Shown piece by piece: positions 11,186-26,379 of a stretch of DNA of 64,000 nucleotides. The stretch is from Candidatus Nitronauta litoralis. GTDB taxonomy: Bacteria > Nitrospinota > Nitrospinia > Nitrospinales > Nitrospinaceae. The stretch lies in NCBI GenBank assembly GCA_015698285.1, contig CP048685.1, forward strand, positions 1,364,001-1,428,000, given 5' to 3'. The translations under genes and the position numbers were made by a program. Position 1 is the stretch's first letter, and each line of letters starts with the position of its first letter. The notes below the pieces were generated by a model, which did not search any database, was not told the origin of the DNA, and saw only the letters and a list, made by a program, of their open reading frames with translations.

Positions 11186-12022
11186 CTATATAAAGGCGGC
11201 GAGGGTGTCTTCCAGTTTGTTGTTCATTTCTTCCCAGACTTTTTTCAAAGCTTTCTCATCCAGTTTGAGAAGGTTTTTAGCCCTGGGATCCAGGACGGGG
11301 GGATGCATCTCACCACTTCCGCCAAGGCCCATTTCATAAGCCAGGAAATCAGCGAAGTGAATAATGGAAGCCTGGGTCTCCCACTTCGGGTTGCGAAACG
11401 GATCGTGATGCCCTCCCACAACAGCCTGTAAAAATTCCGGAAGGTTCCAGCGTTTGAACAGGGCAGCCCCAACCTGGGCGTGGCTGCAATTGAGGTGCTC
11501 CTCCTCGTAAAACGTCATGGGTTTTTCACCCTGTGCGTGTTCTTCAAATATTTTAAGGGACTGGTCTGGTACGGAAAGGCACAGAACGAGTCGACCGAGA
11601 TCGTGCAATAGCCCGGCAACATAATACCGTTCGGCCTTGTCTTCTTTTTTTATTTCGGCAATCGTACGACTAGCCAGGCCAACGGCTACACTGTGACGCC
11701 AGAACAGGTTCATGTTGAACAGTTCATTAGGGATACCGCGGAATTTTCCGAGAATACTGGTTGCCACCACCAGTTCCATGAGTTGGTCCATGCCTACAAT
11801 GGACAATGCATGGGTGATGGTTTCCACTTTTGACTTGAAGCCATAGTAGGGGCTGTTCACAACTCGCAAGAGCCGGGCTGTAAGAGAGGAGTCGATGCGA
11901 ATGATGGCATCCAGTTCCTGGAAACTGGTGTCTGGGTGATGCATCACCTTTTGAAGTTCACAGTAGATATGAAGCGGAGAACCCAGCAGGCCGTTGGGAA
12001 TAGTATCAAGATTGAATTTCAT
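11186..12022 (-). CDS. HDOD-domain signalling protein
   Basis: A 278-aa protein that is nearly all HDOD domain. Its parts are an N-terminal helical part, DSSLTARLLRVVNSPYYGFKSKVETITHALSIVG-type sequence around residues 45-80, and YYVAGLLHDLGRLVLCL with the HD-like pair near residues 130-146. HDOD proteins are HD-fold relatives, usually without phosphodiesterase activity, that act in c-di-GMP, stress or motility signalling. It lies 27 bases after the LuxR-type gene on the same strand, so they probably form an operon. A role in fibre control is plausible from position, not shown. Confidence 0.88.
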   Translation of the reverse strand: MKFNLDTIPNGLLGSPLHIYCELQKVMHHPDTSFQELDAIIRIDSSLTARLLRVVNSPYYGFKSKVETITHALSIVGMDQLMELVVATSILGKFRGIPNELFNMNLFWRHSVAVGLASRTIAEIKKEDKAERYYVAGLLHDLGRLVLCLSVPDQSLKIFEEHAQGEKPMTFYEEEHLNCSHAQVGAALFKRWNLPEFLQAVVGGHHDPFRNPKWETQASIIHFADFLAYEMGLGGSGEMHPPVLDPRAKNLLKLDEKALKKVWEEMNNKLEDTLAAFI

Positions 12023-12049: not shown

Positions 12050-13000
12050 TTAGACAACGTATTTACTTCCGGAATATTGGTTGAGTAGCGCGATTAACTG
12101 GGCCCGGGAGTGAACCCCGCATTTGCGGTATATCCTCTTCAGATAGGTTTTGACCGTGTGTTTGCTGATGAATAACCGATTTGATACCTCGTTGGGGTCG
12201 AGTCCATCGTGGAGCAGGCTGCAAATTTCGACCTCGCGCCAGGACAAACCGACTTTTTGTGCCAACCGGTTCGTCCGGCTGAAAGCGTCAAGAGCGGGTT
12301 GTGTGGTGATAGCCCAGAAAGGTTGAAAACTCTGTGTGGTTTCACCATTCAGTAAACGCACGGTCACCCGATAGTTTTTGTTGTTCCAGTTAAAGAAATT
12401 ATAATCGGTGGTAATCCGTGAAACGTCATCAAGGGGACTGGCTTGCACTTTGGGCGTCGGTTTTTTCTTTACCAGACGGTTGAGAGCTTCAGGCAGGGCT
12501 CCACCATTTTTTATTTCGAATTCCTCGCGCATGACCGCATTGCAATAATTGATTTGCATGTCCATGTCGACAAGGGCAAACCCAAGGCCGGGCTCAACCA
12601 GAATTTCAAGGGCCACCTGAAACTTCCGGGCTTCTTCCAGTAATTCAACCTGGAAATATTTTTTTACCAGGAAAAGAGAAATACAACGCTGAAGCCAAAG
12701 GACGGAGCTTTCACTCTCATCAGGTTTTCCCGGATCTGCAACCAGAATACCCTGAATCGTCTGCGCAAGTTTTTCCAGGTCGTCGGACAATTTGGATAAA
12801 GACGATCCTTTCTCTTTTGAACCCTTTTTTCTCAGGATTTCAAATCCATCAATGGTGGAGATTTCTGATAACTCAAGAAGAGGAGAAGAAAACTCTTTTA
12901 ATGTTTCTTCATAAGCCTTACGGGTATTGCATGTAGAGAGGGCTTTAACAAATTTTTGCAAAGCAGGAAGATTCATGGAAATTAAAGCTGGTTTGGCCAA
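12050..13000 (-). CDS. LuxR-type transcriptional regulator, candidate CsgD-like activator
   Basis: A 316-aa protein. A clear C-terminal LuxR/FixJ HTH occupies about residues 248-310 (LSWREVEICSLLHDGLDPNE and FISKHTVKTYLKRIYRKCGV). The upstream region, about residues 130-200 with FALVDMDMQINYCN, resembles a PAS-like sensor fold, with no receiver Asp cluster. The TTG at 13000 has GAGGA six bases upstream and is preferred; an in-frame ATG at 12976 lacks such a site. It is encoded divergently from the curlin block, and a dyad element upstream of it is repeated in front of the promoter on the other side. CsgD of enteric bacteria is also LuxR-type, hence the candidate role; direct homology to CsgD is not claimed. 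Confidence 0.85.
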   Translation of the reverse strand: MAKPALISMNLPALQKFVKALSTCNTRKAYEETLKEFSSPLLELSEISTIDGFEILRKKGSKEKGSSLSKLSDDLEKLAQTIQGILVADPGKPDESESSVLWLQRCISLFLVKKYFQVELLEEARKFQVALEILVEPGLGFALVDMDMQINYCNAVMREEFEIKNGGALPEALNRLVKKKPTPKVQASPLDDVSRITTDYNFFNWNNKNYRVTVRLLNGETTQSFQPFWAITTQPALDAFSRTNRLAQKVGLSWREVEICSLLHDGLDPNEVSNRLFISKHTVKTYLKRIYRKCGVHSRAQLIALLNQYSGSKYVV

Positions 13001-13038
13001 AAGAATTCCTCAACTAAAATATTAAAATGTCCCTTTAT

Positions 13039-13052
13039 CCCCTTTTGGGGTA
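13039..13052. promoter_or_regulatory. Dyad element, copy 1 (candidate operator)
   Basis: CCCCTTTTGGGGTA, with a CCCC/GGGG dyad around TTTT. It lies 39 bases upstream of the TTG start of the LuxR-type gene. The same pattern recurs at 13311. Confidence 0.5.
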
Positions 13053-13307: not shown

Positions 13308-13324
13308 ATACCCCGTTTGGGGTA
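13308..13324. promoter_or_regulatory. Dyad element, copy 2 (candidate operator)
   Basis: ATACCCCGTTTGGGGTAT reads as a 7-bp inverted repeat around GTTT (13308-13325). It abuts the -35 hexamer of the promoter at 13325, the position of a class II activator site. Confidence 0.55.
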
Positions 13325-13354
13325 TTGTGGGTAAGTTGTGATTGTAAATATAAT
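13325..13354 (+). promoter_or_regulatory. Predicted promoter for the zinc-ribbon gene and possibly the curlin operon
   Basis: TTGTGG at 13325-13330, an 18-base spacer, and a perfect TATAAT at 13349-13354. The weak -35 directly next to a dyad fits an activator-dependent promoter. Confidence 0.55.
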
Positions 13355-13436: not shown

Positions 13437-13649
13437 ATGGACAACCAAACCGTCAAATGCAACACGTGTAAACGAAAAATACAATTCCTGAATGCTGAAG
13501 GATTGTTTGTAACTAAAAACTGTAGTGTTCTTGAGTCTGATCCTGAAACGGGGGTCACCTTTGGTACCTGCAAGTTCTGCAAAACCCGCGTTGAATTGAA
13601 CAACCTTCGATATTTAACCGATGCATTTGAAGTTGGAGTTGCATTTTAG
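13437..13649 (+). CDS. Small zinc-ribbon-like protein
   Basis: A 70-residue protein with two CxxC knuckles (CNTCKRKI near residue 7 and CKFCKTRV near residue 44), the pattern of a zinc ribbon. The ATG at 13437 has AGGA six bases upstream; an ATG at 13431 sits directly on that site and is less likely. It lies between the predicted promoter and the terminator preceding the first curlin gene, so it may be the first cistron of the fibre transcript or an independent regulator. Function unknown. Confidence 0.6.
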   Translation: MDNQTVKCNTCKRKIQFLNAEGLFVTKNCSVLESDPETGVTFGTCKFCKTRVELNNLRYLTDAFEVGVAF

Positions 13650-13737
13650 AATCGGAATGAAAGTTTTTTAAAAGAATTACCACATTAAAATCGAGACAGG
13701 TCCAAGAGGGCAAGAGGTCGGTATAGAGCGACAAAAG

Positions 13738-13789
13738 CCGGGGCCGCGAAAGAAACGCAATGCGTTTTTTTCGTGGTCCCGGTTTTTTT
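13738..13789 (+). terminator. Strong intrinsic terminator just upstream of the first curlin gene
   Basis: A 21-bp stem (13738-13758 with 13762-13782, three G-U pairs, no bulge), a 3-base loop AAT, and seven T at 13783-13789. Only 29 bases separate it from the first curlin start codon, too few for a separate promoter, so it probably acts as an attenuator or readthrough control as well as ending the upstream gene. Confidence 0.88.
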
Positions 13790-13818: not shown

Positions 13819-15006
13819 ATGAAAATCCAAAAGGATTTATCCCAGCAAACTAAACCCCACAGTCGAGTGAAAAAAATTGCCGCTCTGGCAATGTCATTCA
13901 ACGTGATCCTTTCACAGGCCTTTTGTCTGGCTTTGCCATTCATTGCAATGCCTACCGCAATTGCGCAAGAGGTTGTCGAAAACAACGCCACTGTTTTTCA
14001 AAATGGCGCTATGAACTTTGGGGTCATCACACAACAGGGTGGGACTGGAAATAACACAGAGATTGATCAGCAGGGTAGTTTCAATGAGGCCACAGTGGAA
14101 CAGGATGGTTCGGGTAACCAGGCCTTTGTAAACCAGGTCAACGAACTGGAAGAAGGGGACCAGGGCGTACTTGAGGATCTGTTGATTCTTGATCCGCTGG
14201 CACCCGGTGGTGGCGGCGGTGAGGGTGGTTTTCTCGGCAATCTCGCAGCCAACACAGCCGATATCTCCCAGGTTGGCGACGATAACTTTGCTGAAGTCAA
14301 TCAGGATGGAATGCTCAATGAGGCTACTCTTGAGCAGAATGGATTTTCCAACCATGCCTTAATTGAGCAGGTTGATGAAAACATGTCCATCGAAGTTACC
14401 CAGACCGGAGACAACAACCGGGTTGAATCCAGCCAGACATCCGGCAGCCGCAACGAAGCCACCGTGGTTCAGACGGGTAATAACAATCTCGCCACAATCA
14501 CTCAGGTAGATTTCCAGAACGAAATATTCATTACCCAGCTCTCGGATGATAACGAAGCCACTGTAAGCCAGGATGGTTCGATGAACACAGCCACCGTGGT
14601 GCAGGAAGGTGGAATCGATAACATTTCGCTCATCGAAACCCTGGGGGTCAACAATACCGCTGAGATCACCCAGGACGGTAGCAACAACAATGCCTCCATC
14701 ATGCAGGACGGTACATTTAACGAGGCCATCATCTCGCAGACCGGTAGCGACAATATGGCAAGTATCACTCAGGACGGATTCCGAAATGAAGGGCTGATCG
14801 AGCAGATTGGTATCGGCAACATCGCCAGCATCATCCAGGACGGTTTCAACAACCTGGCTTCCATTCTGCAGACGGGCAACGGGCACAACGCCTCCATCGA
14901 ACAGACCGGAAATAACAATAATGCTGAAATTATCCAGGAAGGTTCGCCCAAAACGATCGCGGTAACTCAGACGGGCAATCAGACCTTCTTTATTCATCAG
15001 CAGTAA
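13819..15006 (+). CDS. Curlin-repeat fibre protein 1
   Basis: A 395-aa secreted protein. A long signal peptide ends near AIAQEV (about residue 49). The mature part is built of curlin strands of the form N-x-A-x-[VI]-x-Q-x-G, for example GNNTEIDQQGSFNEATVEQ and NNLATITQVD. A glycine-rich insertion (PGGGGGEGG, about residues 131-140) interrupts the repeats near a quarter of the length. Curlin strands stack into an amyloid beta-helix secreted through CsgG. It lacks the Cys-containing C-terminal cap of paralogues 3-6 and its repeats are richer in E/N than D. It could be a major subunit or a nucleator. The gene for curlin 2 follows after 18 bases. Confidence 0.9.
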   Translation: MKIQKDLSQQTKPHSRVKKIAALAMSFNVILSQAFCLALPFIAMPTAIAQEVVENNATVFQNGAMNFGVITQQGGTGNNTEIDQQGSFNEATVEQDGSGNQAFVNQVNELEEGDQGVLEDLLILDPLAPGGGGGEGGFLGNLAANTADISQVGDDNFAEVNQDGMLNEATLEQNGFSNHALIEQVDENMSIEVTQTGDNNRVESSQTSGSRNEATVVQTGNNNLATITQVDFQNEIFITQLSDDNEATVSQDGSMNTATVVQEGGIDNISLIETLGVNNTAEITQDGSNNNASIMQDGTFNEAIISQTGSDNMASITQDGFRNEGLIEQIGIGNIASIIQDGFNNLASILQTGNGHNASIEQTGNNNNAEIIQEGSPKTIAVTQTGNQTFFIHQQ

Positions 15007-15024
15007 AGAACGGGGTAACTGAAG

Positions 15025-15501
15025 ATGAAACGTTTACGAAATATTACTCTCGCTACAGCAGCTGCTTTATCGCTGGCTCAATCCGGTGCCGAAGCTGGCA
15101 ATCGTGTTGTGGTCAAGCAGAGCGGTGGCGGAGTGACGGAAGTTAAGCAAAGCGGAAGTAATAACAAGGCGACAATTATTCAAAAGAAAAATAAAGCGCA
15201 AAAGTCCGCAGATAAAAATTCCGGCGATTCACAAATTGCCATAATCCGGCAGGAAGGTGACAACAACAGCGTTGTTCAGGAACAGGAGGGCGGGGACAAC
15301 GTCGCTCTCGTTGACCAGACCGGAGAACACAACTCAGTAGTTCAAACACAGCAAGGCAGGGACAACCTCGCACTCTCCATTCAGGAGGGCGAGGACAATG
15401 TAATTGCTCACACCCAGATTGGGGATGGGCATTCCCGCACCGTGACCCAGTCCGGAAGCGGAAAAAACATGGTCATTACCCAGTCCGAATCAAAAAAGTA
15501 A
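15025..15501 (+). CDS. Short curlin-repeat protein 2, CsgB-like candidate nucleator
   Basis: A 158-aa protein with a signal peptide ending near AEAGN (residue 25). The curlin strands (GSNNKATIIQ, GDNNSVVQEQEGGDNVALVDQ, GHSRTVTQSGSGKNMVITQ) are separated by a lysine-rich stretch (KKNKAQKSADKN). This basic segment and the short length resemble minor curlins such as CsgB, whose basic last repeat anchors and nucleates CsgA fibres. It is co-transcribed with curlin 1 (18-base gap). The nucleator role is inferred. Confidence 0.85.
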   Translation: MKRLRNITLATAAALSLAQSGAEAGNRVVVKQSGGGVTEVKQSGSNNKATIIQKKNKAQKSADKNSGDSQIAIIRQEGDNNSVVQEQEGGDNVALVDQTGEHNSVVQTQQGRDNLALSIQEGEDNVIAHTQIGDGHSRTVTQSGSGKNMVITQSESKK

Positions 15502-15589
15502 AAGACTGGATCTCGATTAGTTTTTTTTAAGTGTTTTTGTTTCTTTTTTTTAAGTTTTTATTAATCACAATAATTTTGGAGAATTCAAA

Positions 15590-16915
15590 ATGGCTAAGAA
15601 AACTCTCAAAGCCCTCGCGATTTTATCCTTGTTGGCGTTTCTGAATGGAACGGCAATGGCGGACAATAACGCGACTTCAACCACAACGGGTAACGACAAT
15701 ACCTCTAACATCACCCAGTCCGGTGATGGTCAGACAGCTGATGTAGATCAGAATGGTGACGACAACACTTCGGATGTTGACCAGTCCAACCTGGACAACA
15801 CCGCAACTGTAAACCAGAGCCAGGGTGAAAACGATTCTGATGTAAATCAGAGTGGTGTGGGCAACGTTGCTACCGTTGACCAGGATGACCTGAACGAGTC
15901 TACAGTTGATCAGTCTGGTGATGACAACATTGCTGATGTTAACCAGATTGGCAATCCTACTGCTCCTGAGAACACCCAGAACATTTCTACCATCAACCAG
16001 TCCGGTAGCGGGAACAGCGCGACAGTTGACCAGGATGACCGCAACATTTCTAACATTGATCAGTCCGGCGATGGCAACACCGCCAACGTCAGCCAGATCA
16101 TTGCTCAGGGTTTTGACGACAACGATTCTGATGTTCAGCAGTCTGGTGATGACAACGTAGCAAACGTTTCTCAGACCGGTCACAATAACACCTCCCTTGT
16201 TAACCAGGAAGGTGACCTGAATGACGCGAACGTTACTCAGGAAGGTGACAACAACGATTCAATTGTTAACCAGTATGGTGATGAGAACCTGGCTGATGTT
16301 TCCCAGACCGGTGACGACAACGTTTCCAATGTTGAGCAGGACGAGCTGAACGACGCGACTGTTAACCAGTCTGGTGACCGCAACAACGCGGACGTAAACC
16401 AGAACGATGCAGTGGCTACTTTTGACGGTTCCGGTGGAAACTCTGCTTCTATTGACCAGAGCGGTAACGACAACCAGGCGACTGTTAACCAGTTTGATCC
16501 TACCGATTTTGGTGGTTCTAAAGGCAACACCGCCGACATCGATCAGAGCGGTGATTTCAACCAGGCGACTGTTAACCAGAACAACGGTTCAGTTCAAACC
16601 AACCTGAACTCTTTCGATAACACGGCTCTAATCGACCAGAGCGGTGACTACAATGTGGCAACCGTATCTCAGGACGATGACAACTCCGCGACTGTACTGC
16701 AGACCGGTTTGGGTACAGCTGTCGATCCGAACACCGTGACCATTACCCAGCACAACGGTGGTGATGTAGCGGATGCAGAACAGCACATTGGTGAAGGCAA
16801 CACCATCACCATCAACCAGGAAGCTTGTTGTTCCGAAAATGCTGGCGCCAACAACTTTGCGACTGCGATTCAGAGTGGTTCTTTCAACACGACCACCATT
16901 ACGCAACTCCCGTAG
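15590..16915 (+). CDS. Large curlin-repeat fibre protein 3
   Basis: A 441-aa protein with a signal peptide (KALAILSLLAFLNGTAMA, cleaved before DNNATS). By hand count it has about 33 strand units ending in x-[VI]-x-Q, roughly 16 two-strand curlin repeats, far more than the five of enteric CsgA. The turns are rich in Asp (QSGDDNTADVNQ), so the fibre would be strongly acidic. The C-terminal cap carries NQEACC, NNFATAIQ and a final TITQLP. Bases 15626-16156 are identical by eye to 18777-19307 in paralogue 5. The start has GGAG nine bases upstream. A GC hairpin follows the gene. Confidence 0.92.
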   Translation: MAKKTLKALAILSLLAFLNGTAMADNNATSTTTGNDNTSNITQSGDGQTADVDQNGDDNTSDVDQSNLDNTATVNQSQGENDSDVNQSGVGNVATVDQDDLNESTVDQSGDDNIADVNQIGNPTAPENTQNISTINQSGSGNSATVDQDDRNISNIDQSGDGNTANVSQIIAQGFDDNDSDVQQSGDDNVANVSQTGHNNTSLVNQEGDLNDANVTQEGDNNDSIVNQYGDENLADVSQTGDDNVSNVEQDELNDATVNQSGDRNNADVNQNDAVATFDGSGGNSASIDQSGNDNQATVNQFDPTDFGGSKGNTADIDQSGDFNQATVNQNNGSVQTNLNSFDNTALIDQSGDYNVATVSQDDDNSATVLQTGLGTAVDPNTVTITQHNGGDVADAEQHIGEGNTITINQEACCSENAGANNFATAIQSGSFNTTTITQLP

Positions 16916-16927
16916 TTTGAATCTGGC

Positions 16928-16953
16928 TTTCCGGGGCCTTGGGGCCCCGGGAA
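16928..16953 (+). other. Intercistronic GC hairpin after curlin 3
   Basis: CCGGGGCC (16931-16938), loop TTGG, GGCCCCGG (16943-16950), extended by three weaker pairs, with no T-tract. It is more likely an mRNA-stabilising or processing structure than a full terminator. Confidence 0.65.
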
Positions 16954-16996
16954 TTCAGTTTACTAATATTGAGTTTCGAAGTTTGGAGACAAAACA

Positions 16997-18619
16997 ATGT
17001 CAAAGAAAGTTTTGAGAGCCCTTACGGTACTAGTGGTAATGGCGTTTATGAACGGCTCTGCATTTGCCGCCAACAACGCCACGTCCACGACCACGGGTTC
17101 CAATAACAATTCGGCTATCACCCAGTCCGGTGATGGTCAGACAGCTGATGTGGATCAGAATGGTGATAACAACGATTCTGATGTACAGCAGTCAGATGCA
17201 GATAACACGGCTGATATTGATCAGGATGGCGATGACAACCTATCAACTGCTAACCAGTCTGGTGCTGGTAATACCGCAAATGTTGATCAGGATGACACGA
17301 ATCAGGATTCCAATGTCGAACAGTCGGGTGATTCAAACCTCGCTAATGTTACGCAATCGGGTGATGGTCAGATCTCTGATGTAAATCAGAGTGGTGACCT
17401 TAATACAGCCGATGTTGTTCAGGCTGGCGCGGATAACTTGTCTACAGTCGATCAAAGTGGTGCTGAAAACCAGGCCACCGTGGATCAGGATGGTGACGAG
17501 AATGATTCAGATGTTAACCAGTCCGGCAATGTCAACACAGCGAATGTTGATCAGGACGGTGAGGATCATGAGTCAACCATCGATCAGTCTGGTGATAGCA
17601 ACAATGCAGAAGTGACCCAGACCACATCTAACAACACATCTGATGTTGATCAGAGTGGTAACGGTAACAACGCCATTGTAAATCAGGTTAACGATCTGGA
17701 CTTCTCTGAAGTTTTCCAGTCCGGTAACGACAACGAAGCTTTTGTTGATCAGGATCGTGGAAACCAGTCCACCGTTGATCAGTCTGGCGATGACAATACC
17801 GCTGATGTAAATCAGATTGGCAACGCTGTTGGCACCAATGTTGGCAATGAGTCCACCATCACTCAGTCTGGTGACTTGAACACCGCGGTTGTTGATCAGG
17901 ATGATAACAACGAGTCCACCATTGAGCAGCAGGGTGACCTGAACCTGGCAACTGTTGATCAGACCGGATTTAGTGGAACCGACACCAACACGTCGGACAT
18001 CCTGCAGATCGGTGACGGCAACATCGCCGATGTGACTCAGAACGGTAACCTCAACGAGTCCAACATCGTTCAGCGTTTTGGGAATGATGCCATTGTTATT
18101 CAGTCTGGTACTGAGAACGTTTCCAATGTTGACCAGGGCGATTCCAACACGGCGGAAGTAACTCAGTCTGGCGACCGGAACCTTTCTGACGTGAATCAGC
18201 ATCATGATCCTTTCGAGTCTGATTCCAATGAAGCATATGTCACGCAGTCTGGTAACGATAACGTTTCTACTGTTAACCAGAACGGTGTAATTCCAAACGG
18301 AAAGTCTGTGGATAACACTGCAACTGTAGAGCAATCTGGAGATTGGAACGTTGCGACTGTTACCCAGGACGATTTCAACACCGCATCGGTATTGCAGACC
18401 GGTTTAGGAACGGCTGGCGATCCGAACACGGTTGATATCACTCAGTTCAACGATGGCGATTTTGCTGAGGCCGAGCAACATGGCGGCGAAGGCAATGCAA
18501 TCACCATCAATCAGGAAGCTTGTTGTAATTCCAATGTAGCTCCATTTGGCGCTAATAACTTTGCGACTGCGATTCAGACCGGTACGTTCAATACGACGAC
18601 CATCACGCAGCTTCCTTAG
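16997..18619 (+). CDS. Largest curlin-repeat fibre protein 4
   Basis: At 540 aa this is the longest member. The signal peptide (VLVVMAFMNGSAFA) is cleaved before ANNATS. Curlin strands run almost without interruption (NQSGAGNTANVDQ, DQSGNGNNAIVNQ, TQSGDLNTAVVDQ), with Asp-rich turns. The C-terminal cap is shared with paralogues 3, 5 and 6: PNTVDITQ, GEGNAITINQ, EACC, NNFATAIQ and TITQLP. Short stretches near the 5' end are base-identical with curlin 3, suggesting local sequence exchange. The start is preceded by GGAG about ten bases upstream. Probably a major structural subunit. Confidence 0.92.
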   Translation: MSKKVLRALTVLVVMAFMNGSAFAANNATSTTTGSNNNSAITQSGDGQTADVDQNGDNNDSDVQQSDADNTADIDQDGDDNLSTANQSGAGNTANVDQDDTNQDSNVEQSGDSNLANVTQSGDGQISDVNQSGDLNTADVVQAGADNLSTVDQSGAENQATVDQDGDENDSDVNQSGNVNTANVDQDGEDHESTIDQSGDSNNAEVTQTTSNNTSDVDQSGNGNNAIVNQVNDLDFSEVFQSGNDNEAFVDQDRGNQSTVDQSGDDNTADVNQIGNAVGTNVGNESTITQSGDLNTAVVDQDDNNESTIEQQGDLNLATVDQTGFSGTDTNTSDILQIGDGNIADVTQNGNLNESNIVQRFGNDAIVIQSGTENVSNVDQGDSNTAEVTQSGDRNLSDVNQHHDPFESDSNEAYVTQSGNDNVSTVNQNGVIPNGKSVDNTATVEQSGDWNVATVTQDDFNTASVLQTGLGTAGDPNTVDITQFNDGDFAEAEQHGGEGNAITINQEACCNSNVAPFGANNFATAIQTGTFNTTTITQLP

Positions 18620-18637
18620 TTACACGGTAAAGCATCC

Positions 18638-18665
18638 GTTTCCCCGGGGTTTTCCCCGGGGAAAC
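18638..18665 (+). other. Intercistronic GC hairpin after curlin 4
   Basis: A perfect 12-bp stem: GTTTCCCCGGGG (18638-18649), loop TTTT, CCCCGGGGAAAC (18654-18665), with no following T-tract. Similar hairpins sit after curlins 3, 5 and 6. Confidence 0.75.
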
Positions 18666-18740
18666 AATCGGGTGTTTAGCAGTATTTGGGGTCAAAATTT
18701 TTACAAACTTGAATTTTGAAATATAAAGGAAAATTTAAAA

Positions 18741-19967
18741 ATGGCTAAAAAAACTTTGAAAGCACTGGCAATCTTATCCTTGTTGGCGTTTCTGAATGGA
18801 ACGGCAATGGCGGACAATAACGCGACTTCAACCACAACGGGTAACGACAATACCTCTAACATCACCCAGTCCGGTGATGGTCAGACAGCTGATGTAGATC
18901 AGAATGGTGACGACAACACTTCGGATGTTGACCAGTCCAACCTGGACAACACCGCAACTGTAAACCAGAGCCAGGGTGAAAACGATTCTGATGTAAATCA
19001 GAGTGGTGTGGGCAACGTTGCTACCGTTGACCAGGATGACCTGAACGAGTCTACAGTTGATCAGTCTGGTGATGACAACATTGCTGATGTTAACCAGATT
19101 GGCAATCCTACTGCTCCTGAGAACACCCAGAACATTTCTACCATCAACCAGTCCGGTAGCGGGAACAGCGCGACAGTTGACCAGGATGACCGCAACATTT
19201 CTAACATTGATCAGTCCGGCGATGGCAACACCGCCAACGTCAGCCAGATCATTGCTCAGGGTTTTGACGACAACGATTCTGATGTTCAGCAGTCTGGTGA
19301 TGACAACACAGCAAACGTTTCCCAGACCGGTCACCTGAACACCTCCCTGGTTAACCAGGAAGGCAACCTGAATGACGCGACTGTTGATCAGACTGGTGAT
19401 AATAACGATTCAGTTATTAATCAGCTTGCTGATGAAAACGTTGCAGATGTGACCCAGTCCGGTATTGACAACGTTTCTACGGTTGATCAGGATTTGCGCA
19501 ACACGGCGACTGTTAATCAGAGCGGTGAACGCAACAGCTCTGATGTGAATCAACTTGGTGGTCAATATGAATCTCGTGACAATACGGCATCAGTTACGCA
19601 GTCTGGTGATGACAACATCGCAACTGTCAACCAGGATAACGGCATCCTTCCGATCGGCATTTCAGTTGACAATGACGCTACGATTGACCAGAGCGGCGAC
19701 TGGAACGTAGCGACCGTTTCTCAGGATGATTTCAACACAGCAAATGTCCTGCAGACCGGTTTGGGTACGGCTGCTGATCCGAACACCGTTACCGTCACTC
19801 AGATTGATGACGACGATGTGGCCAATGCCGAGCAGCATGGCGGCGAAGGCAACGTGATCACCATCACTCAGGACCAGGCTTGTGTTGTCGGCGGTTGTGG
19901 CACTTTCAACAACGCAACTGCAATCCAGACGGGTGCGTTCAACACGACCACGATTAACCAGAACTAA
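18741..19967 (+). CDS. Large curlin-repeat fibre protein 5
   Basis: A 408-aa protein. Its N-terminal part is the same as in curlin 3 at protein and DNA level (identical block 18777-19307), while the first 12 codons differ only silently, a sign of recent gene conversion. The remaining repeats diverge (NQLADENVADVTQ, NQSGERNSSDVNQ). The cap is variant: the vicinal CC pair is replaced by spaced cysteines (QACVVGGC) and the end is TTTINQN. It has a signal peptide as in curlin 3 and an AAGGA ribosome site before the ATG. Confidence 0.92.
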   Translation: MAKKTLKALAILSLLAFLNGTAMADNNATSTTTGNDNTSNITQSGDGQTADVDQNGDDNTSDVDQSNLDNTATVNQSQGENDSDVNQSGVGNVATVDQDDLNESTVDQSGDDNIADVNQIGNPTAPENTQNISTINQSGSGNSATVDQDDRNISNIDQSGDGNTANVSQIIAQGFDDNDSDVQQSGDDNTANVSQTGHLNTSLVNQEGNLNDATVDQTGDNNDSVINQLADENVADVTQSGIDNVSTVDQDLRNTATVNQSGERNSSDVNQLGGQYESRDNTASVTQSGDDNIATVNQDNGILPIGISVDNDATIDQSGDWNVATVSQDDFNTANVLQTGLGTAADPNTVTVTQIDDDDVANAEQHGGEGNVITITQDQACVVGGCGTFNNATAIQTGAFNTTTINQN

Positions 19968-19983
19968 GTAGTGTAATCCCGTT

Positions 19984-20009
19984 TCTCCGGGGCTTTTAAG
20001 CCCCGGAGA
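19984..20009 (+). other. Intercistronic GC hairpin after curlin 5
   Basis: TCTCCGGGGCTT paired with AAGCCCCGGAGA, 11-12 bp with a tight loop and no T-tract. Confidence 0.7.
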
Positions 20010-20047
20010 CCGGTTAACCATAAAAGGTAAAATTGGAGAAACGAATC

Positions 20048-21316
20048 ATGTCTAGGAAAACCCTGAAAGCCCTGGCCGTTCTGGTGGCCCTGGCGTTTTT
20101 GAGCGGCCCAGCTTTAGCCGACAACAACGCCACGTCCAACACAACGGGTACGGGCAATGCCTCCACCATCGACCAGAGTGGTGACGGTCATAATGCCGAT
20201 GTTACTCAGAACGGTGATAATAATGATTCCGATGTTGACCAGAGCGCTTTTGATAACACTGCAACGGTTCAGCAGTTGGATAACGACAGTGTCTCCGTGG
20301 TTGTCCAAAGTGGGAATGGTAATGAAGAAGAGCAAGGCGGCGGTGGTGGAAATAACGCCAATGTCCTCCAGTTTTCAACCGACACCTCAACGATCAACCA
20401 GTCCGGTAACGAAAACGATGCAACCGTTATTCAGGAAATTGCCAACAGCTCTGATGTAGACCAGAGTGGTGATGGCAACACGGCATTTGTCGGTCAGCTT
20501 GGTAACCCGGATCCAGTCAACTACGCCAACATTTCCACCATTGATCAGTCGGGTAATGACAACGATGCAATCGTTCGTCAGGATGATTTCAATGAATCCA
20601 ACATCAACCAGACTGGTGATGGCAACTCTGCAACTGTAGATCAGATCGGCTTTGTTGGATTTGATTTCAACGGTTCTGACGTTCAGCAATCTGGCGATGA
20701 CAACACCGCGGATGTTGACCAGAGTGGTGACTTGAATATTTCCACTGTTGACCAGAGTGGCGACTTGAACCAGGCCAGTGTCAACCAGAGTGGCCAGGCA
20801 AATGGTTCTACCGTTGAACAGTTTGGTGATAACAACGGAGCCAATGTCAGCCAGAGTGGAACGTTGAATAGTTCCCTCGTTCGGCAACAGACAGACAACA
20901 GTGCTTTGGTTGACCAGTCCGGTTTTGCCAACTCATCTACCATTCTGCAGGACGGCAATATCGGCAACGCACCTTCTATTGGCAATGCAGCTAACGTCAA
21001 CCAGTCCGGTGAATGGAACGTAGCCAACGTTTCCCAGGATGACAATAACACTGCGTTTGTAGACCAGAGTGGTGTGGGTACGGATGTTAACCCCAATACG
21101 GTTGATATCAGCCAGTTCAACGATGGGGATACTGCCACTGCAACCCAGCTCATCGGCGAAGGCAACAGCATCGTGGTTGAGCAGGAACAATGTTGTTCCA
21201 GCACGCCTCCAACGGGTGCCAACAACTTTGCTGACGCTCTGCAGGCTGGCAACAACAACTCAACCACCATCATCCAGTTGAGGGACAGCCCTCCTCCGGG
21301 TGGCGGATTGTTCTAG
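20048..21316 (+). CDS. Large curlin-repeat fibre protein 6
   Basis: 422 aa from the ATG at 20048, which has GGAG ten bases upstream; an in-frame TTG at 20033 would add five residues before the signal peptide. The signal is KALAVLVALAFLSGPALA, cut before DNNATS. Curlin strands (DQSGDGHNADVTQ, NQSGQANGSTVEQ) are interrupted by a short glycine/glutamate loop (EEQGGGGGN). The cap has EQEQCCSS and NNFADALQ, and the protein ends with a unique proline/glycine tail (DSPPPGGGLF). The tail could mark a fibre end or anchor; that is speculation. Confidence 0.92.
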   Translation: MSRKTLKALAVLVALAFLSGPALADNNATSNTTGTGNASTIDQSGDGHNADVTQNGDNNDSDVDQSAFDNTATVQQLDNDSVSVVVQSGNGNEEEQGGGGGNNANVLQFSTDTSTINQSGNENDATVIQEIANSSDVDQSGDGNTAFVGQLGNPDPVNYANISTIDQSGNDNDAIVRQDDFNESNINQTGDGNSATVDQIGFVGFDFNGSDVQQSGDDNTADVDQSGDLNISTVDQSGDLNQASVNQSGQANGSTVEQFGDNNGANVSQSGTLNSSLVRQQTDNSALVDQSGFANSSTILQDGNIGNAPSIGNAANVNQSGEWNVANVSQDDNNTAFVDQSGVGTDVNPNTVDISQFNDGDTATATQLIGEGNSIVVEQEQCCSSTPPTGANNFADALQAGNNNSTTIIQLRDSPPPGGGLF

Positions 21317-21486
21317 TTCGAAAATCAGGAGCTTTATGTCCATGCGGAGACGGCCAAAATTTAAGCGAATCAACGTCGTATCCCCAAGTCATTCCAGGGG
21401 CATGAGGGTTCTAGTAAAAATATCATGTTGTCGCACACTCCCCCAGGTTGGGCAGCATGGTAGGCCATGCTTTCAAGGCCATTTAG

Positions 21487-21521
21487 CCCCGGGCTCCTGG
21501 AGTTTTCTCCAGGGCCTGGGG
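21487..21521 (+). other. Intercistronic GC hairpin after curlin 6
   Basis: CTCCTGGAG / CTCCAGGG inner stem with loop TTTT, and an outer CCCCGGG / CCTGGGG stem with one bulged base. No T-tract. It lies in a 285-base gap with no supported gene. Confidence 0.65.
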
Positions 21522-21601
21522 TTTCTAAATTTAAGTTTTACCGGACCCGGGGTGGTGAACTGATGTTCAGGAACGGGTCGGAACAAATGAAGGTGGATTC
21601 C

Positions 21602-22303
21602 ATGAGCCAATTGTTTTTAAAAGCGTGCTTCAGTGCAGCCCTGATAGGTTTTTTTTCTACCCCGGCTGTCGCGGACAACATCGCGGACTCCAGAACTACA
21701 GGAGATGGAAACCTTTCAACGATTGATCAGGCTGGTGATGATGTTACCGGTGCGAGTGAAGCTTTAATTGTCCAGTCTGGTGATAGGAATAGTTCAGAAG
21801 TCGGGCAGGGTAAAAGTACTGGAATAAGGCAACACGGGCCGCGCAGTGCTAACGTGGCACAGACCGGTGATGACAACCAGTCCAGGGTTGAACAAAACGG
21901 TCCGAACAACACCGCAGATGTCGAACAAACAGGTGCCGGAAACGAATCGGATGTTCAGCAGGGCAGTGTCGATTTGGCTGATGACAACGAGGCAAACGTT
22001 GTGCAGATGGGTGATGGAAATCTTTCGACAGTGGTGCAAGCCGAAGGCATACCCACCGGCCGACGCCAGCACGGTTTTCGCCAGGTAACGGTTTTCCAGG
22101 ATGGCATCGACAATGTTTCGATGGTAGTTCAGCAAGGCCCAAACAATTCTGCCAGTGTCGAACAATTTGGAGAATTAAACGAATCTGAAATTTTCCAGGA
22201 TGGTGGCGATGGCACTTCCCAAAACACAGCAACGGTGTTTCAGTCCGGTAGAGGAAACAGGTCCAGGATTGATCAGGCCGGAAAACCGACCGGTAAACGA
22301 TAA
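21602..22303 (+). CDS. Curlin-repeat protein 7 with basic RQHG insertions
   Basis: 233 aa from the ATG at 21602. This start places the signal peptide (FLKACFSAALIGFFSTPAVA) in register with that of curlin 8; upstream in-frame ATGs at 21563 and 21590 add residues without family support. Curlin strands (GDDNQSRVEQNGPNNTADVEQ) alternate with arginine/histidine segments (GIRQHGPR, GRRQHGFR), and the protein ends KPTGKR. No cysteine cap. The basic inserts contrast with the acidic paralogues, so it could be a minor subunit bridging or nucleating acidic fibres, or binding a surface. Curlin 8 follows after 18 bases. Confidence 0.88.
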   Translation: MSQLFLKACFSAALIGFFSTPAVADNIADSRTTGDGNLSTIDQAGDDVTGASEALIVQSGDRNSSEVGQGKSTGIRQHGPRSANVAQTGDDNQSRVEQNGPNNTADVEQTGAGNESDVQQGSVDLADDNEANVVQMGDGNLSTVVQAEGIPTGRRQHGFRQVTVFQDGIDNVSMVVQQGPNNSASVEQFGELNESEIFQDGGDGTSQNTATVFQSGRGNRSRIDQAGKPTGKR

Positions 22304-22321
22304 ACCAGGAGGACCAGAAAA

Positions 22322-23014
22322 ATGAAACAAACGATTTTAAAAGCATTAGCGGGAACAGCTTTAATCGGTTTTTGTTCGACTCCGGTCTTCGCGGATAACA
22401 TTGCTGAATCTGAAAGCACTGGCGACCACAATGTTTCGACGATTAATCAGAGTGGGGATAATCAGGATGGCAAGGTCACTCAAAACGGCAACCACCTGAC
22501 CTCGACCATCAATCAGATTGATTTCGCCAATAAATCGACCGTCAAACAGGCTGGCGAACATAATATTTCCACGATCAACCAGGAAACCGGCAACACGGCG
22601 ATGGTGGATCAGGGGGGAAACCACAACACGTCAACCATCAATCAGGACGCGAACACCAACAACCTTGGTCGGGCATACTCCAGCGGCAATACTGCGGATG
22701 TTACCCAGCGCGGGAAATATAACCAATCGACTGTGAACCAGTATGACACCAATAATGCAGAGGTGGACCAGACGGGAACGGGTACCAGTGAAAACCCCAA
22801 TACTGTGGTGATCAACCAGTTTAAAAACGAAGATACCGCTATTGCCGCCCAGACCGGTGGTGCCGGAAACTCTATCGAGATCAACCAGACTGTTTGTTGT
22901 AATGGAGGAGACCGGTCGGACGTCAAGAATTTCGCCACTGCAGAACAACACGGTAGCTTCAACACAACCCTCATTAATCAACAGGCACTGGAAACTCAGG
23001 GTCAGGAAAGATAA
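22322..23014 (+). CDS. Curlin-repeat fibre protein 8
   Basis: A 230-aa protein with a signal peptide ending VFADN. The curlin strands use HNVSTINQSG and HNTSTINQ forms, with more Thr/Ser/His and less Asp than curlins 3-6. The C-terminal cap carries TVCCNGGD and NFATAEQHGSFNTTLINQ, matching the CC cap of the larger paralogues. GGAGG lies upstream of the ATG. It is the last curlin gene before a terminator. Confidence 0.9.
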   Translation: MKQTILKALAGTALIGFCSTPVFADNIAESESTGDHNVSTINQSGDNQDGKVTQNGNHLTSTINQIDFANKSTVKQAGEHNISTINQETGNTAMVDQGGNHNTSTINQDANTNNLGRAYSSGNTADVTQRGKYNQSTVNQYDTNNAEVDQTGTGTSENPNTVVINQFKNEDTAIAAQTGGAGNSIEINQTVCCNGGDRSDVKNFATAEQHGSFNTTLINQQALETQGQER

Positions 23015-23082
23015 TTCCCGACTCCTCTTCCTGAAAACAGGAAAATTCAGAGTTGGAATCAGAAAATAAGTGGATTTTTAAT

Positions 23083-23128
23083 AAAACAGGCCGATGAGGG
23101 AAAAGGTCCCCTTCGTCCTGTTTTTTTT
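23083..23128 (+). terminator. Intrinsic terminator ending the curlin array
   Basis: AAAACAGG...CGA..GGG pairs with CCC..TTCGTCCTGTTTT, followed by a run of eight T (23121-23128). It separates the fibre genes from the secretion genes. Confidence 0.8.
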
Positions 23129-23183
23129 GACCCTAAGCGTGTTTGTAGGTCAATAAATTTCAAAGGTTTTGCGGTTTTTCATG

Positions 23184-23212
23184 TTGACAGAAATTGTAAT
23201 TGAAAATATGAT
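23184..23212 (+). promoter_or_regulatory. Near-consensus sigma70 promoter of csgEFG
   Basis: Perfect TTGACA (23184-23189), a 17-base spacer, and TATGAT (23207-23212). It is just after the curlin terminator and about 70 bases before the csgE start, giving the secretion genes a separate and probably constitutive input. Confidence 0.85.
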
Positions 23213-23283
23213 GGAGCGCACTGCCTAATGCTTTACCGGCGATAGATCGGTGTTAAAAATCCTGTTGAGCCCAGGTTTTGTGG

Positions 23284-23700
23284 ATGAATAAAATGAAAAA
23301 GTCCTCAACCTTTAATTGGTTGCTCTTACCAGGGTTGGCACTGGTCCTGATTTTCGCTTCAACAGCCCACGGGCAGATGGCCAGTGATGAAGGGTTGGGA
23401 ATTACCGGCCTTATTCTGGACGAGACCAAGACAAAAGGCGGGCACGACTTTTACGATTTTTTCACCATCAACTGGCGAGCTGTAAAAGGGGTAGAGTACA
23501 CCATTCATATTGCGGAGCAGCCGGATCGGGCGCGTGGTAGTTTCATCAAAATTTCGATTAACGAAAAACAGATTTATTTTCAAAGACTAAATCCACGGAC
23601 CGATGCAATTGAAGAAGCTGCCAAGCTGGCAGTACAAAGAACACGATACATACTGGTAAAAAGACTCTTCACCAGCAATGAACTGGACGGAGCGCCTTAA
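23284..23700 (+). CDS. csgE: Curli assembly/transport component CsgE
   Basis: About 138 aa, with a signal peptide ending AHGQ. The CsgE core follows: GLILDETKTKGGHDFYDFF, then YTIHIAEQPDRARGSFIKI and RTRYILVKRL, matching CsgE in order and length. CsgE is a periplasmic nonamer that caps the CsgG pore and directs curlin subunits to it. The ATG at 23284 is preferred; a second ATG at 23293 would still keep the signal. First gene of the secretion operon under the promoter at 23184. Confidence 0.9.
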   Translation: MNKMKKSSTFNWLLLPGLALVLIFASTAHGQMASDEGLGITGLILDETKTKGGHDFYDFFTINWRAVKGVEYTIHIAEQPDRARGSFIKISINEKQIYFQRLNPRTDAIEEAAKLAVQRTRYILVKRLFTSNELDGAP

Positions 23701-23738
23701 TAGAAGAAATAAATCCGTTGAATAACGGGAGTCGCAGG

Positions 23739-24158
23739 ATGAAAAGAACAATACAAAAGACAATTTTGGGAATGCTGGCTGTAGGTTTTTTCAGCACACA
23801 GGTTTGGGCAGGAGAAATTGTTTACACTCCAGTTAATCCGAACTTTGGCGGAAGTCCTTTCAATGGAGCCTACTTATTAAGCAATGCTGGACAACAGAAT
23901 GGTTTTGAAGCCCCGCCCCGTGATGCACGCGATTCGGCAGCAGATTTTGTAGAAAGGCTGGACCGAACCATTCTTAGTAGACTTTCCCGTGCATTAACAT
24001 CCGACATTATTGCAGAGGATGGGAGTATCAATACGGGTGAATTTTCTACTGGGGTAAATACAATTGTGGTATCTCAATCGGGTGGTGCAACCGTTGTTAC
24101 AGTGACCAATTTAATTACAGGCGAAACAACAAACATTACAATTCCTATTGTTCCTTGA
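23739..24158 (+). CDS. csgF: Curli assembly component CsgF
   Basis: 139 aa from the ATG at 23739, which is preceded by GGAG. The signal peptide ends VWAG. The start of the mature protein, EIVYTPVNPNFGGSPFNGAYLLS, is the hallmark CsgF N-terminus that inserts into the CsgG channel as a second constriction. A short curlin-like segment (VVSQSGGATVVTV) lies near the C-terminus. CsgF couples secretion to nucleation at the cell surface. Confidence 0.93.
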   Translation: MKRTIQKTILGMLAVGFFSTQVWAGEIVYTPVNPNFGGSPFNGAYLLSNAGQQNGFEAPPRDARDSAADFVERLDRTILSRLSRALTSDIIAEDGSINTGEFSTGVNTIVVSQSGGATVVTVTNLITGETTNITIPIVP

Positions 24159-24181
24159 ATTTAATGACTGGAAACTCATTG

Positions 24182-25138
24182 ATGTTAAAACTAATTACCG
24201 CTTCCATTCTGGGTTCTTTATTACTTCTTGGTGGGTGCAGTCACAAAATCCAGCCTGTCAAATCTGCCAAGGCGCAACTGGGTTACAAAACACAATCTCA
24301 TCTTGAACTGAGAGCCCTTCCCGAGCCGGCGCAACCCATCATTGTCGTGGTCTACAAGTTCCGGGACCAGACCGGCCAGTACAAGCCGGGGACCGGGACT
24401 ACAGGTTGGTCGACAGCGGTTACTCAGGGTGCAACCTCCATGCTCATCAAAGCCCTGCAGGATGCGGGCGATGGCAAATGGTTCACTGTTCTGGAACGCG
24501 AATCCCTGCCGAATCTACTCAACGAACGTAAAATAATCCGGCAGACCCGTAAAGAATACGACGCTAAAACGAAGGGTGCCAGAGTTCAAAAGTTACCGCC
24601 CCTTCTCTTTGCTCCCATCATGTTGGAAGGCGGTATCATTGCTTATGAAAGCAATTTGATAACCGGCGGTCTTGGCGCACGTTACCTTGGAATTGGTGCG
24701 AATACCAAATACCAGCGGGATATGGTCACCATATACCTGCGAGCCATTTCGGTCAAAAAGGGTCTGGTATTAAAATCGGTCACCACCAATAAAACGATAT
24801 TTTCCATGGGAATGGATGCCGGTGTTTTCAAGTTCGTCGGTTTCCAGGAACTCTTGGAAGTTGAAGCTGGGTTTACAACCAATGAACCACCACAGATGGC
24901 CGTTCTGGAAGCGATTGAAAAAGCAGCCTACAGCCTCATCATGGAAGGGGTGAACGAGGGTCTCTGGAAATTCAAGGATCCCAAGATTCAGGCGAAATTG
25001 ATGAAAAAGTATCTTCGGGAAAAATCAGCAATCGTCACAGCAGAGTTCGATCAGAAAGGGAATCTCATAGCGGTAAGAGATCCTTCCAATCCAAAATATG
25101 GCAAAAAATTTAAGCGCAAAGGTCCGCGCCGAAGATAA
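24182..25138 (+). CDS. csgG: Curli secretion channel lipoprotein CsgG
   Basis: About 318 aa from the ATG at 24182; an ATG at 24164 is an alternative. The lipobox is LLLLGGC. Conserved CsgG stretches follow: VVVYKFRDQTGQYKP, FTVLERESLPNLLNERKI, GARYLGIG and DMVTIYLRAISVKKG. CsgG forms the nonameric outer-membrane pore for unfolded curlins. The C-terminal tail is basic (KKFKRKGPRRR) and longer than usual. It overlaps or abuts csgF and is followed eight bases later by a beta-barrel gene. Confidence 0.95.
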   Translation: MLKLITASILGSLLLLGGCSHKIQPVKSAKAQLGYKTQSHLELRALPEPAQPIIVVVYKFRDQTGQYKPGTGTTGWSTAVTQGATSMLIKALQDAGDGKWFTVLERESLPNLLNERKIIRQTRKEYDAKTKGARVQKLPPLLFAPIMLEGGIIAYESNLITGGLGARYLGIGANTKYQRDMVTIYLRAISVKKGLVLKSVTTNKTIFSMGMDAGVFKFVGFQELLEVEAGFTTNEPPQMAVLEAIEKAAYSLIMEGVNEGLWKFKDPKIQAKLMKKYLREKSAIVTAEFDQKGNLIAVRDPSNPKYGKKFKRKGPRRR

Positions 25139-25146
25139 GTGAAATT

Positions 25147-25866
25147 ATGAAATCTATGAAAAAAATCATACAAAATTTTCCAAAGGTTACTCTAGCCCTA
25201 GGGTTGGTTCTATCTTTTTGTCTTATATCTCCAGCCCAGGCTGGTGATTATGGAAGTTCTGGTCAGCCCTATTTTAGCTTGTCAGCCCAAGTCGTTTCCC
25301 CTGATGCAATAGATGTAGAGTCTGCAATTGGTTTTCCTAATGGTGGGATCTTAACGGCGCGGGATGCGAGCCTTGACTTTGAAGTAGGCTGGGGCGTTAC
25401 CGGTGCCTTTGGCTGGCTTTACGATTCCAACTGGCATTATGAAGTGGAGTTAGGCCACAGGGCTTTTGATTTGGCGGATGGGTTTGCTACAGGAAATGCT
25501 CAACCTGTAACTGGGGAATGGAATACGCAAACATTTTTTATTAATGGTGGCTACGATTTCCGCAGTGACTCATTCATCACTCCTTATTTGGAAGTAGGTC
25601 TTGGGGCGGCATTGCACGAAGTAACGATTGAAGGTTTTAGCAACCTTCCAGTCATTCCAGCAATCAGTGAGCAATTTCAAGTAACCCCTGCTGTTCAGGC
25701 TAAAATGGGTGTCAATCTGGAAGTGGCAGACGACATGGATATTGTATTAGGCTATCGTTTCGTAACAGCCGTAAACCCTGACTTTGATGCAATAGCTTTC
25801 GACCGCTTGGACATCCACAATTTCGAATTAGGTCTGAAGTTCTATATCGAAGACTGGATCAACTGA
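25147..25866 (+). CDS. Outer-membrane beta-barrel protein in the csg operon
   Basis: A 239-aa protein with a signal peptide ending PAQAGD. It then has alternating amphipathic strands typical of an eight-stranded OmpA/OmpW-like or opacity-type barrel (WHYEVELGHRAF, TFFINGGYDF, FITPYLEVGLGAAL, MDIVLGYRF). It ends with a strand that closes the barrel (NFELGLKFYIEDW). It follows csgG by eight bases and precedes the terminator, so it is part of the secretion operon. Barrel proteins are not part of the enteric csg set, so it may serve the fibre export site. Specific role unknown. Confidence 0.85.
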   Translation: MKSMKKIIQNFPKVTLALGLVLSFCLISPAQAGDYGSSGQPYFSLSAQVVSPDAIDVESAIGFPNGGILTARDASLDFEVGWGVTGAFGWLYDSNWHYEVELGHRAFDLADGFATGNAQPVTGEWNTQTFFINGGYDFRSDSFITPYLEVGLGAALHEVTIEGFSNLPVIPAISEQFQVTPAVQAKMGVNLEVADDMDIVLGYRFVTAVNPDFDAIAFDRLDIHNFELGLKFYIEDWIN

Positions 25867-25891
25867 CGCTTTCTTCCGTACAGCAACTCCA

Positions 25892-25921
25892 CCACAGCCC
25901 TTTGGGTTGTGGTTTTTTTTT
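25892..25921 (+). terminator. Intrinsic terminator ending the csgEFG-barrel operon
   Basis: CCACAGCCC (25892-25900), loop TTT, GGGTTGTGG (25904-25912), then nine T. Confidence 0.93.
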
Positions 25922-26007
25922 GTCTGTAATCGCTAAAGAGGCTGGTTTTTCAGTATAATGCCTTTAATCTATTCTTACCCGGGGGGGATAAATTGGGAGA
26001 TGGCTCA

Positions 26008-26379
26008 ATGCTCTTTGGCGAATATCTGGTAAAAAAAGGTCTGGTTGATGAGGAAGCTCTGGTGATCGCTCTCGATCAGCAACGCCAGCAAAAAAGACCT
26101 TTGGGGCAAATAGCCTTGAAATCCGGATTGATCAACAAAAAAGATCTGTTCAAAATTCTTACCGAGCAAAGAAAAACTGAGTCAAAGGATAAAAGTTTTG
26201 GTCTCATTGCACTGGAATTGGAAATTCTGACAATGGAACAGGTTGATGGTCTTGTGGCTTCCCAGTCCGAATCCAATTTTTTGCTGGGTGAAGTTTTGGT
26301 GGAGGATGGAGTGCTCAGCAAAAATCAACTCAACCAGAGTCTGAAAGAATTTTACGGTAACGAAGATGACGGTGATTGA
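26008..26379 (+). CDS. MshEN-like (GspE N-terminal) small protein, possible c-di-GMP binder
   Basis: A 123-aa protein starting at the ATG 26008, with GGGAGA seven bases upstream; a TTG at 25993 would add five residues. It carries repeated MshEN-type motifs, LFGEYLVKKGLVDEEALVIALDQQ, then PLGQIALKSGLINKKDLFKI and LLGEVLVEDGVLSKNQL. In MshE and similar ATPases such paired motifs bind cyclic di-GMP. Here they stand alone without the ATPase. Lying just after the curli genes it could link c-di-GMP to surface attachment; this is inference. Confidence 0.78.
   Translation: MLFGEYLVKKGLVDEEALVIALDQQRQQKRPLGQIALKSGLINKKDLFKILTEQRKTESKDKSFGLIALELEILTMEQVDGLVASQSESNFLLGEVLVEDGVLSKNQLNQSLKEFYGNEDDGD

Follow-up and report, generated by a model that had tools for sequence, protein, structure and literature searches.

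The window analysed here is a stretch of 64,000 nucleotides (nt) from the genome of Candidatus Nitronauta litoralis EB (Nitrospinota), a single contig of 3,921,641 bases, and all positions given for it are counted from its first letter. This marine nitrite oxidiser was obtained by enrichment from coastal sediment (PMC8026999). Eight consecutive open reading frames (ORFs), w1 to w8, lie on the + strand at 13819-23014 and encode curlins, the subunits of curli, protein fibres that hold bacterial biofilms together; these ORFs are followed by csgE, csgF, csgG and an outer-membrane beta-barrel gene (Table 1). This arrangement had been proposed in an initial annotation of the DNA, and Pfam searches bear it out. 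All eight ORFs pass the cut-off of Curlin_rpt (PF07012) with expectation values (E) of 5e-71 to 3e-13 and 4-18 significant stretches each; CsgE, CsgF and CsgG score above their own cut-offs, and the final gene matches OMP_b-brl. Genome-wide, there are 40 curlin-repeat matches, all inside this block, which also holds the only CsgG and the only CsgF of the genome. The N-termini of w1-w8 are signal-peptide-like by inspection. The start of w6 is probably to be corrected to 20048, and w7 probably starts at 21602, which gives 233 amino acids (aa) behind a good ribosome site, and not at 21467.

Table 1 Features of the curlin locus and its surroundings. Curlin strand numbers are pattern counts; E values refer to the family named.
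Feature	Positions	Strand	Details
LuxR-type regulator gene	12050..13000	-	divergent from curlins; GerE E 3e-14
Palindrome TACCCC-GTTT-GGGGTA, candidate operator	13309..13324	.	~44 nt upstream of inferred transcription start
-10-like TATAAT of curlin operon, putative	13349..13354	+	within 12-base block GTAAATATAATG, identical in three species
Leader ORF	13437..13649	+	70 aa, two CxxC (zinc-ribbon-like); conserved in three species; dN/dS 0.05 vs G002
Leader box GGTCCAAGAGGGCAAGAGGTCG	13699..13720	+	22 nt; identical in three species, one copy per genome
Terminator-like hairpin + T run, candidate attenuator	13738..13789	+	ends ~30 nt before w1 ATG
Curlin w1, class A	13819..15006	+	395 aa, 23 strands, Ala/Ala core, acidic; PF07012 E 5e-71
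Curlin w2, class B	15025..15501	+	158 aa, 7 strands, near-neutral, Lys-rich insertion; PF07012 E 1e-14; candidate CsgB-type nucleator
Curlin w3, major type	15590..16915	+	441 aa, 32 strands, Ser/Ala alternation, CC pair; PF07012 E 8e-52
Curlin w4, major type	16997..18619	+	540 aa, 40 strands, CC pair; PF07012 E 2e-70
Curlin w5, major type	18741..19967	+	408 aa, 30 strands, C-x4-C pair; PF07012 E 1e-39
Curlin w6, major type	20048..21316	+	~422 aa from ATG, 32 strands, CC pair, Pro/Gly tail; PF07012 E 5e-44
Conserved non-coding element, w6-w7 gap	21425..21490	+	~65 nt; 90% identity to G001 over 67 nt, 80% to G002 over 133 nt
Curlin w7	21602..22303	+	233 aa from likely start, 14 strands, RQHG inserts, mature part without Cys; PF07012 E 2e-26
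Curlin w8	22322..23014	+	230 aa, 13 strands, CC pair; PF07012 E 3e-13
Terminator hairpin closing curlin unit	23083..23128	+	hairpin + T run in three species
Promoter TTGACA-17-TATGAT for csgEFG-barrel, predicted	23184..23212	+	11/12 consensus
csgE	23278..23700	+	PF10627 E 2e-20
csgF	23718..24158	+	PF10614 E 8e-27
csgG, outer-membrane curli exporter	24155..25138	+	PF03783 E 5e-64
Outer-membrane beta-barrel gene	25147..25866	+	8 nt after csgG; PF13505 (OMP_b-brl) E 2e-9
Terminator after barrel gene	25891..25921	+	predicted
Stand-alone two-domain MshEN-type gene	25993-26379		after barrel; cyclic di-GMP-binding model NF053729

Judged by its sequence, the locus encodes a true curli (type VIII secretion) system that was enlarged and differentiated in a Nitrospinota lineage. 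CsgG shares 73% identity with a protein from a Nitrospinaceae metagenome-assembled genome and reaches 238 of the 505 bits that the enteric equivalog model requires. CsgC is restricted to Enterobacteriales and Aeromonadales (PMC3521004) and is therefore not a general requirement for curli. The AlphaFold2 model of w3 (predicted local distance difference test score, pLDDT, 74) contains 34 regular strands, in agreement with the approximately 33 strand units that had been counted by hand for this protein. The model of w2 (pLDDT 73) contains 11 strands and a low-confidence Lys-rich loop, and both models are compatible with a solenoid.

The relatives were represented by 61 genomes, mostly of the same order and with that of Ca. 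Nitronauta litoralis included. Curlin repeats are present in nine of them and CsgF in eight. Six genomes contain an array of this type: besides the one described here, it has seven curlin genes in the congener G002, at least eight, split over contigs, in the congener G001, and four each in G003 and G006 of another genus. G014, from another family of the same order, has 13 curlins in a row (L131/L132, C1 ~292.7-311.7 kb) as well as further copies elsewhere, and its csgEFG genes are on a different contig from the 13-curlin array. A comparison of synteny, suggested in the initial annotation, showed that the 5' order of the array is kept across these genomes. All six begin with a long w1-type gene (368-411 aa), which is followed by a short gene (158-181 aa) and then by 2-11 mostly long, acidic curlins. 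In G001 (L104 1711-2422) the w6-like curlin is broken into two frames by a frameshift, which may be a mutation or an assembly error.

We also inspected 80 loci around the closest CsgG relatives, taken with 10 kb flanks from a genome collection that is rich in Bacteroidota. The longest run of adjacent curlins in this sample is six, and most loci have one or two. Two flavobacterial curli loci, L046 and L048, each contain one curlin of 1041 aa with ~65 strands.

The eight subunits differ in charge and in core chemistry. Strong acidity marks w1 and w3-w6, which have only 3-4 basic residues each and a net charge of -13 to -17 per 100 residues; the acidity of w7 and w8 is moderate (~-7 net per 100 residues), and w2 alone is near-neutral (net ~-1). 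The protein with RQHG inserts had been described as basic; its mature part in fact carries a net charge of -16 with an isoelectric point (pI) of 4.3. In w1 and its positional counterparts, Ala occupies the first buried (psi1) position of most strands. At the same position Ser and Ala alternate in w3-w7 and in the distant curlins q4 and q9. In w4, 36 of 42 steps are switches between Ser and Ala (permutation p 5e-5); the corresponding value for w3 is p 0.025, and the permutation gave no significance for w8 and o4.

Of 42 Nitrospinales curlins examined, 25 contain cysteine, a tally of related proteins that is not a statistic. The residues number two or four per protein and stand in close pairs, as CC, CxxC or with slightly longer spacings; the single odd count belongs to w7, where the Cys lies within the signal-peptide part. 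Mature CsgA and CsgB of E. coli lack Cys, as do 126 of the 134 curlins in the CsgG-neighbour loci. The pairs suggest disulphides or metal sites. As for the class A curlins elsewhere, those of the neighbouring genus (L102 9708-10889, L103 11109-12314) carry a His/Cys-rich insertion, HYLHCHGPQHAC, with a metal-binding look, and the class A curlin of G014 has a His-rich insertion at the same place.

The short gene at the second position defines class B. A profile built from the six class B proteins finds one strong copy in each array genome at 223-254 bits, and the next curlin anywhere reaches 55; the high scores arise by construction, and the informative part is the empty range below them. The class B proteins are reciprocal best hits across families. 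They are short and near-neutral to basic, resembling E. coli CsgB in both size and charge (pI 9.3, against 4.5 for CsgA), and their last motif opens with Lys in several, if not most, members. A degenerate repeat of this kind has been described for CsgB (PMC10192328). The w2 protein combines the CsgB-like traits of approximately five repeats (11 strands), a degenerate basic terminal repeat and a single copy, and its closest solved structure by sequence is the Pontibacter CsgA 8c50 (E 6e-11). The array likely consists of a CsgB-like nucleator and several body subunits.

A tract of 534 nt, from base 34 to base 567, is identical in w3 and w5, and beyond its 3' flank identity is 60-76%. In G002, the corresponding m3 and m5 match at 86-98% over the first 240 codons, beyond which they diverge. 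Over these 240 codons w3 and w5 are only ~68-88% alike to their G002 orthologues. Because the paralogues are more alike than the orthologues in both species, the pattern is one of concerted evolution, most simply by gene conversion. If the assembly had collapsed or duplicated a repeat, this too would leave 534 bases without any difference, but we consider this explanation highly improbable: Illumina and Nanopore reads were combined to assemble the genome as one contig (PMC8026999), the sequences flanking the tract diverge on either side, the pair is homogenised and not identical in an independent species, and the gene order is conserved.

Selection was estimated against the sister species G002 from the ratio of nonsynonymous to synonymous substitution rates (dN/dS). 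All seven testable curlin pairs give 0.09-0.21, indicating purifying selection; these ratios are approximate, as several pairs approach saturation at synonymous sites, and w7 stands outside the comparison because it has no G002 orthologue. A counterpart of w7 was found in neither the G001 nor the G002 array. Purifying selection against G002 also applies to csgG, csgE, the barrel gene and the leader ORF. That the curli system is expanded, ordered and selectively maintained can be regarded as established.

The same data bear on whether the many subunits have separate tasks. The long curlins could be interchangeable members of a dosage array, kept for output and for variety of monomer length, with only the usual CsgA/CsgB split being real. 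This is how one would read the homogenised w3/w5 and m3/m5 tracts, which lie ~12-32% from their orthologues, the signal peptide style, Ser/Ala core, acidity and C-terminal cap common to w3-w6, and the number of further curlins, which ranges from 2 to 11 across the relatives. Individual members are nevertheless kept, with protein identities of 80% for w4/m4, 76% for w6/m6 and 76% for w8/m8 and a low dN/dS in each case, and both the Pro/Gly tail of w6, borne in similar form by its G002 orthologue, and the w8 type (orthologues m8 and n8) persist across species. We give interchangeability of the long curlins a rather low probability. The initial annotation had favoured a division of labour over simple redundancy, and this holds in part. 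It is supported by the single-copy class B, conserved in two families of the order, by the core chemistry of w1, which differs from that of the long curlins, and by the seven pairs under purifying selection, but not by w3-w6, which look like one type, with w3 and w5 homogenised by gene conversion. Among these four, tuning of dosage or copy number is therefore no less likely than specialisation.

Inspection of the non-coding DNA predicted two conserved transcription units, one for the curlins and one for csgEFG and the barrel. The claim that the array has its own secretion operon was correct as to the genes, but these are predicted to be transcribed separately from the curlins. In the csgE promoter, TTGACA is identical and the spacing is kept in three species. 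The promoter, operator and attenuator of the curlin unit are likewise predictions. The exact palindrome TACCCC-N4-GGGGTA occurs once in each of the three congener genomes, within a conserved block. A looser copy with two mismatches lies at 13037-13052 by the start of the LuxR-type gene and hints at autoregulation, and a related dyad, CCC-AGTA-GGG, within ACCCAGTAGGGT, is common to the curlin leaders of both second-genus species (L102, L103). The curlin promoter has no consensus -35, as is expected of an activator-dependent promoter. The LuxR-type gene has the same divergent position in G001 and G002; its best NCBIfam match, the CsgD equivalog, is missed at 37 bits (cut-off 250). An HDOD-domain gene (11186-12022) lies directly downstream of it on the same strand, possibly in one operon.

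Within the leader, the ORF matches no family above cut-off, and the 22-nt box is missing from the 58 other relatives even with up to three mismatches allowed. The leader hairpin folds 8.8 standard deviations better than shuffled sequences (z-score -8.8). The space between this hairpin and the w1 ATG is hardly large enough for a normal-sized promoter; if the hairpin terminates transcription, the curlins can be expressed only through read-through. For both the leader and the w6-w7 gap, a known riboswitch was considered and rejected, with no Rfam match up to E 1. The non-coding element in the w6-w7 gap is single-copy in three genomes and more conserved than the flanking genes.

Alternatively, each curlin type could polymerise alone, with different fibres made under different conditions through internal promoters or terminators between the genes. 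Strong hairpins do stand between w3 and w4 (16928-16953) and, by the conserved non-coding element, between w6 and w7, and the core chemistry of w1 and w3-w6 differs. Promoter-like sites in the region are, however, at chance level (16 against 16.5 expected), most gaps between the curlins measure only 18-121 nt, and curlin solenoids of different species stack with each other in models (PMC10192328). Separate fibres are thus an improbable outcome.

We lean towards a differentiated curli system with w2 as the nucleator, long acidic body subunits, a class A second minor subunit and a regulated leader. An activator, most simply the divergent LuxR-type protein, would bind the palindrome upstream of the curlin promoter, and transcripts would read through the leader terminator before entering the eight curlin genes, while csgE-csgF-csgG-barrel would be transcribed from its separate promoter. 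The curlins would cross the inner membrane by means of their signal peptides and the outer membrane via CsgG with CsgE and CsgF. The single short class B protein, w2, would act as a CsgB-type nucleator or anchor. The body of the fibre would be formed by co-polymerised w3-w6, with w8 and perhaps w7, as stacked beta-solenoids, some of which would have, close to the C-terminus, a pair of Cys residues that forms a disulphide or binds metal. The class A protein w1, with its different core, would serve as a second minor subunit. It is plausible that all eight subunits enter one composite fibre.

Several observations weigh against the differentiated system. A fold search with the w3 model, which is itself of middling confidence, gave CsgA 8c50 as the top Protein Data Bank (PDB) match without significance (E 0.09, template modelling score 0.27). 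With 50.8 bits, the w2 protein falls short of the 165 that the CsgB equivalog model requires, and for this reason we call it CsgB-like and not CsgB. Sorting into CsgA and CsgB by NCBIfam score was tried and discarded as not diagnostic, since every curlin tested scores higher with the CsgB model than with the CsgA model. Class A reciprocal best hits across families fail in two of three comparisons, so class A is defined there by its position and its core pattern. The authors who described the strain observed no aggregates in culture (PMC8026999).

A more elaborate form of the differentiated system is tentative and, on balance, doubtful. Here the array would be a multi-component amyloid by design, with a fixed nucleator, a fixed second minor subunit and an expandable body set. 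The N-terminal halves of some body subunits, matched by conversion, would still stack and be exported together, the C-terminal ends would diverge with Cys-pair and charge modules, and the leader attenuator would gate output. If this were true, fibre composition would be set by gene copy number and order. Why bacteria keep many curlins is a question that becomes testable here through the orthologous classes, the candidate nucleator, the concerted evolution and the relatives with 4, 7, 8 and 13 genes. In a coastal-sediment organism, attachment may set it apart from its curli-less relatives.

The locus shares curlin repeats, CsgE, CsgF and CsgG with the csgDEFG/csgBAC locus of E. coli MG1655. In both, a LuxR-type gene also diverges from the first curlin, with a long intergenic distance between the two (818 nt here, ~750 nt in E. 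coli), and there is one short, near-neutral or basic minor curlin. In contrast, there are eight curlins here and two in E. coli, and five of the eight are ~2.6-3.6 times longer; csgEFG follows the curlins on their strand and has a predicted promoter to itself; and the regulator resembles CsgD only in the C-terminal helix-turn-helix domain (41% identity over 56 aa). The leader hairpin, leader ORF, Cys pairs and barrel are further differences. With Pontibacter korlensis CsgA R15.5 (8c50) the system would share a long, regular curlin solenoid; the core there is centrosymmetric (PMC10192328), whereas w3-w7 show the Ser/Ala psi1 alternation and most of them a Cys pair.

Expanded curli systems are already known. 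Dueholm et al. (2012) reported up to six curlin copies and curlins of up to 529 aa with 22 motifs, found extra copies often in additional operons, could separate CsgA from CsgB only in Gammaproteobacteria, and proposed that extra copies modulate fibre properties (PMC3521004). Sleutel et al. (2023) counted as many as 30 curlin copies in one genome and as many as 62 repeats (PMC10192328). Eight curlins in one array is a high number but within the known range. Many long curlins per genome and the idea of extra copies as tuners of fibre properties are therefore not new; what differs from these systems is that the eight lie in one array whose class order is conserved in the order. New here are the ordered class scheme, the Ser/Ala core with Cys pairs, the concerted evolution, the purifying selection and the predicted control region. 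The literature searched contains no description of curli in Nitrospinota, only one incidental co-occurrence of the words.

The barrel gene had been taken for a dedicated partner of the curli system, a role that we rejected. Its homologue adjoins a LuxR homologue in the curlin-free G007 and G011, where the matched frames hold one stop, and again at a second locus of G006. In G003 and G006 a homologue stands divergently upstream of the curlins, and G014, which has the largest array, is without the barrel. By sequence the barrel has no relatives in the PDB. It may be linked to the regulator rather than to curli export. The MshEN-type gene was likewise considered as a curli component and set aside; it follows the operon in three congeners, but curlin-free relatives have homologues of it elsewhere.

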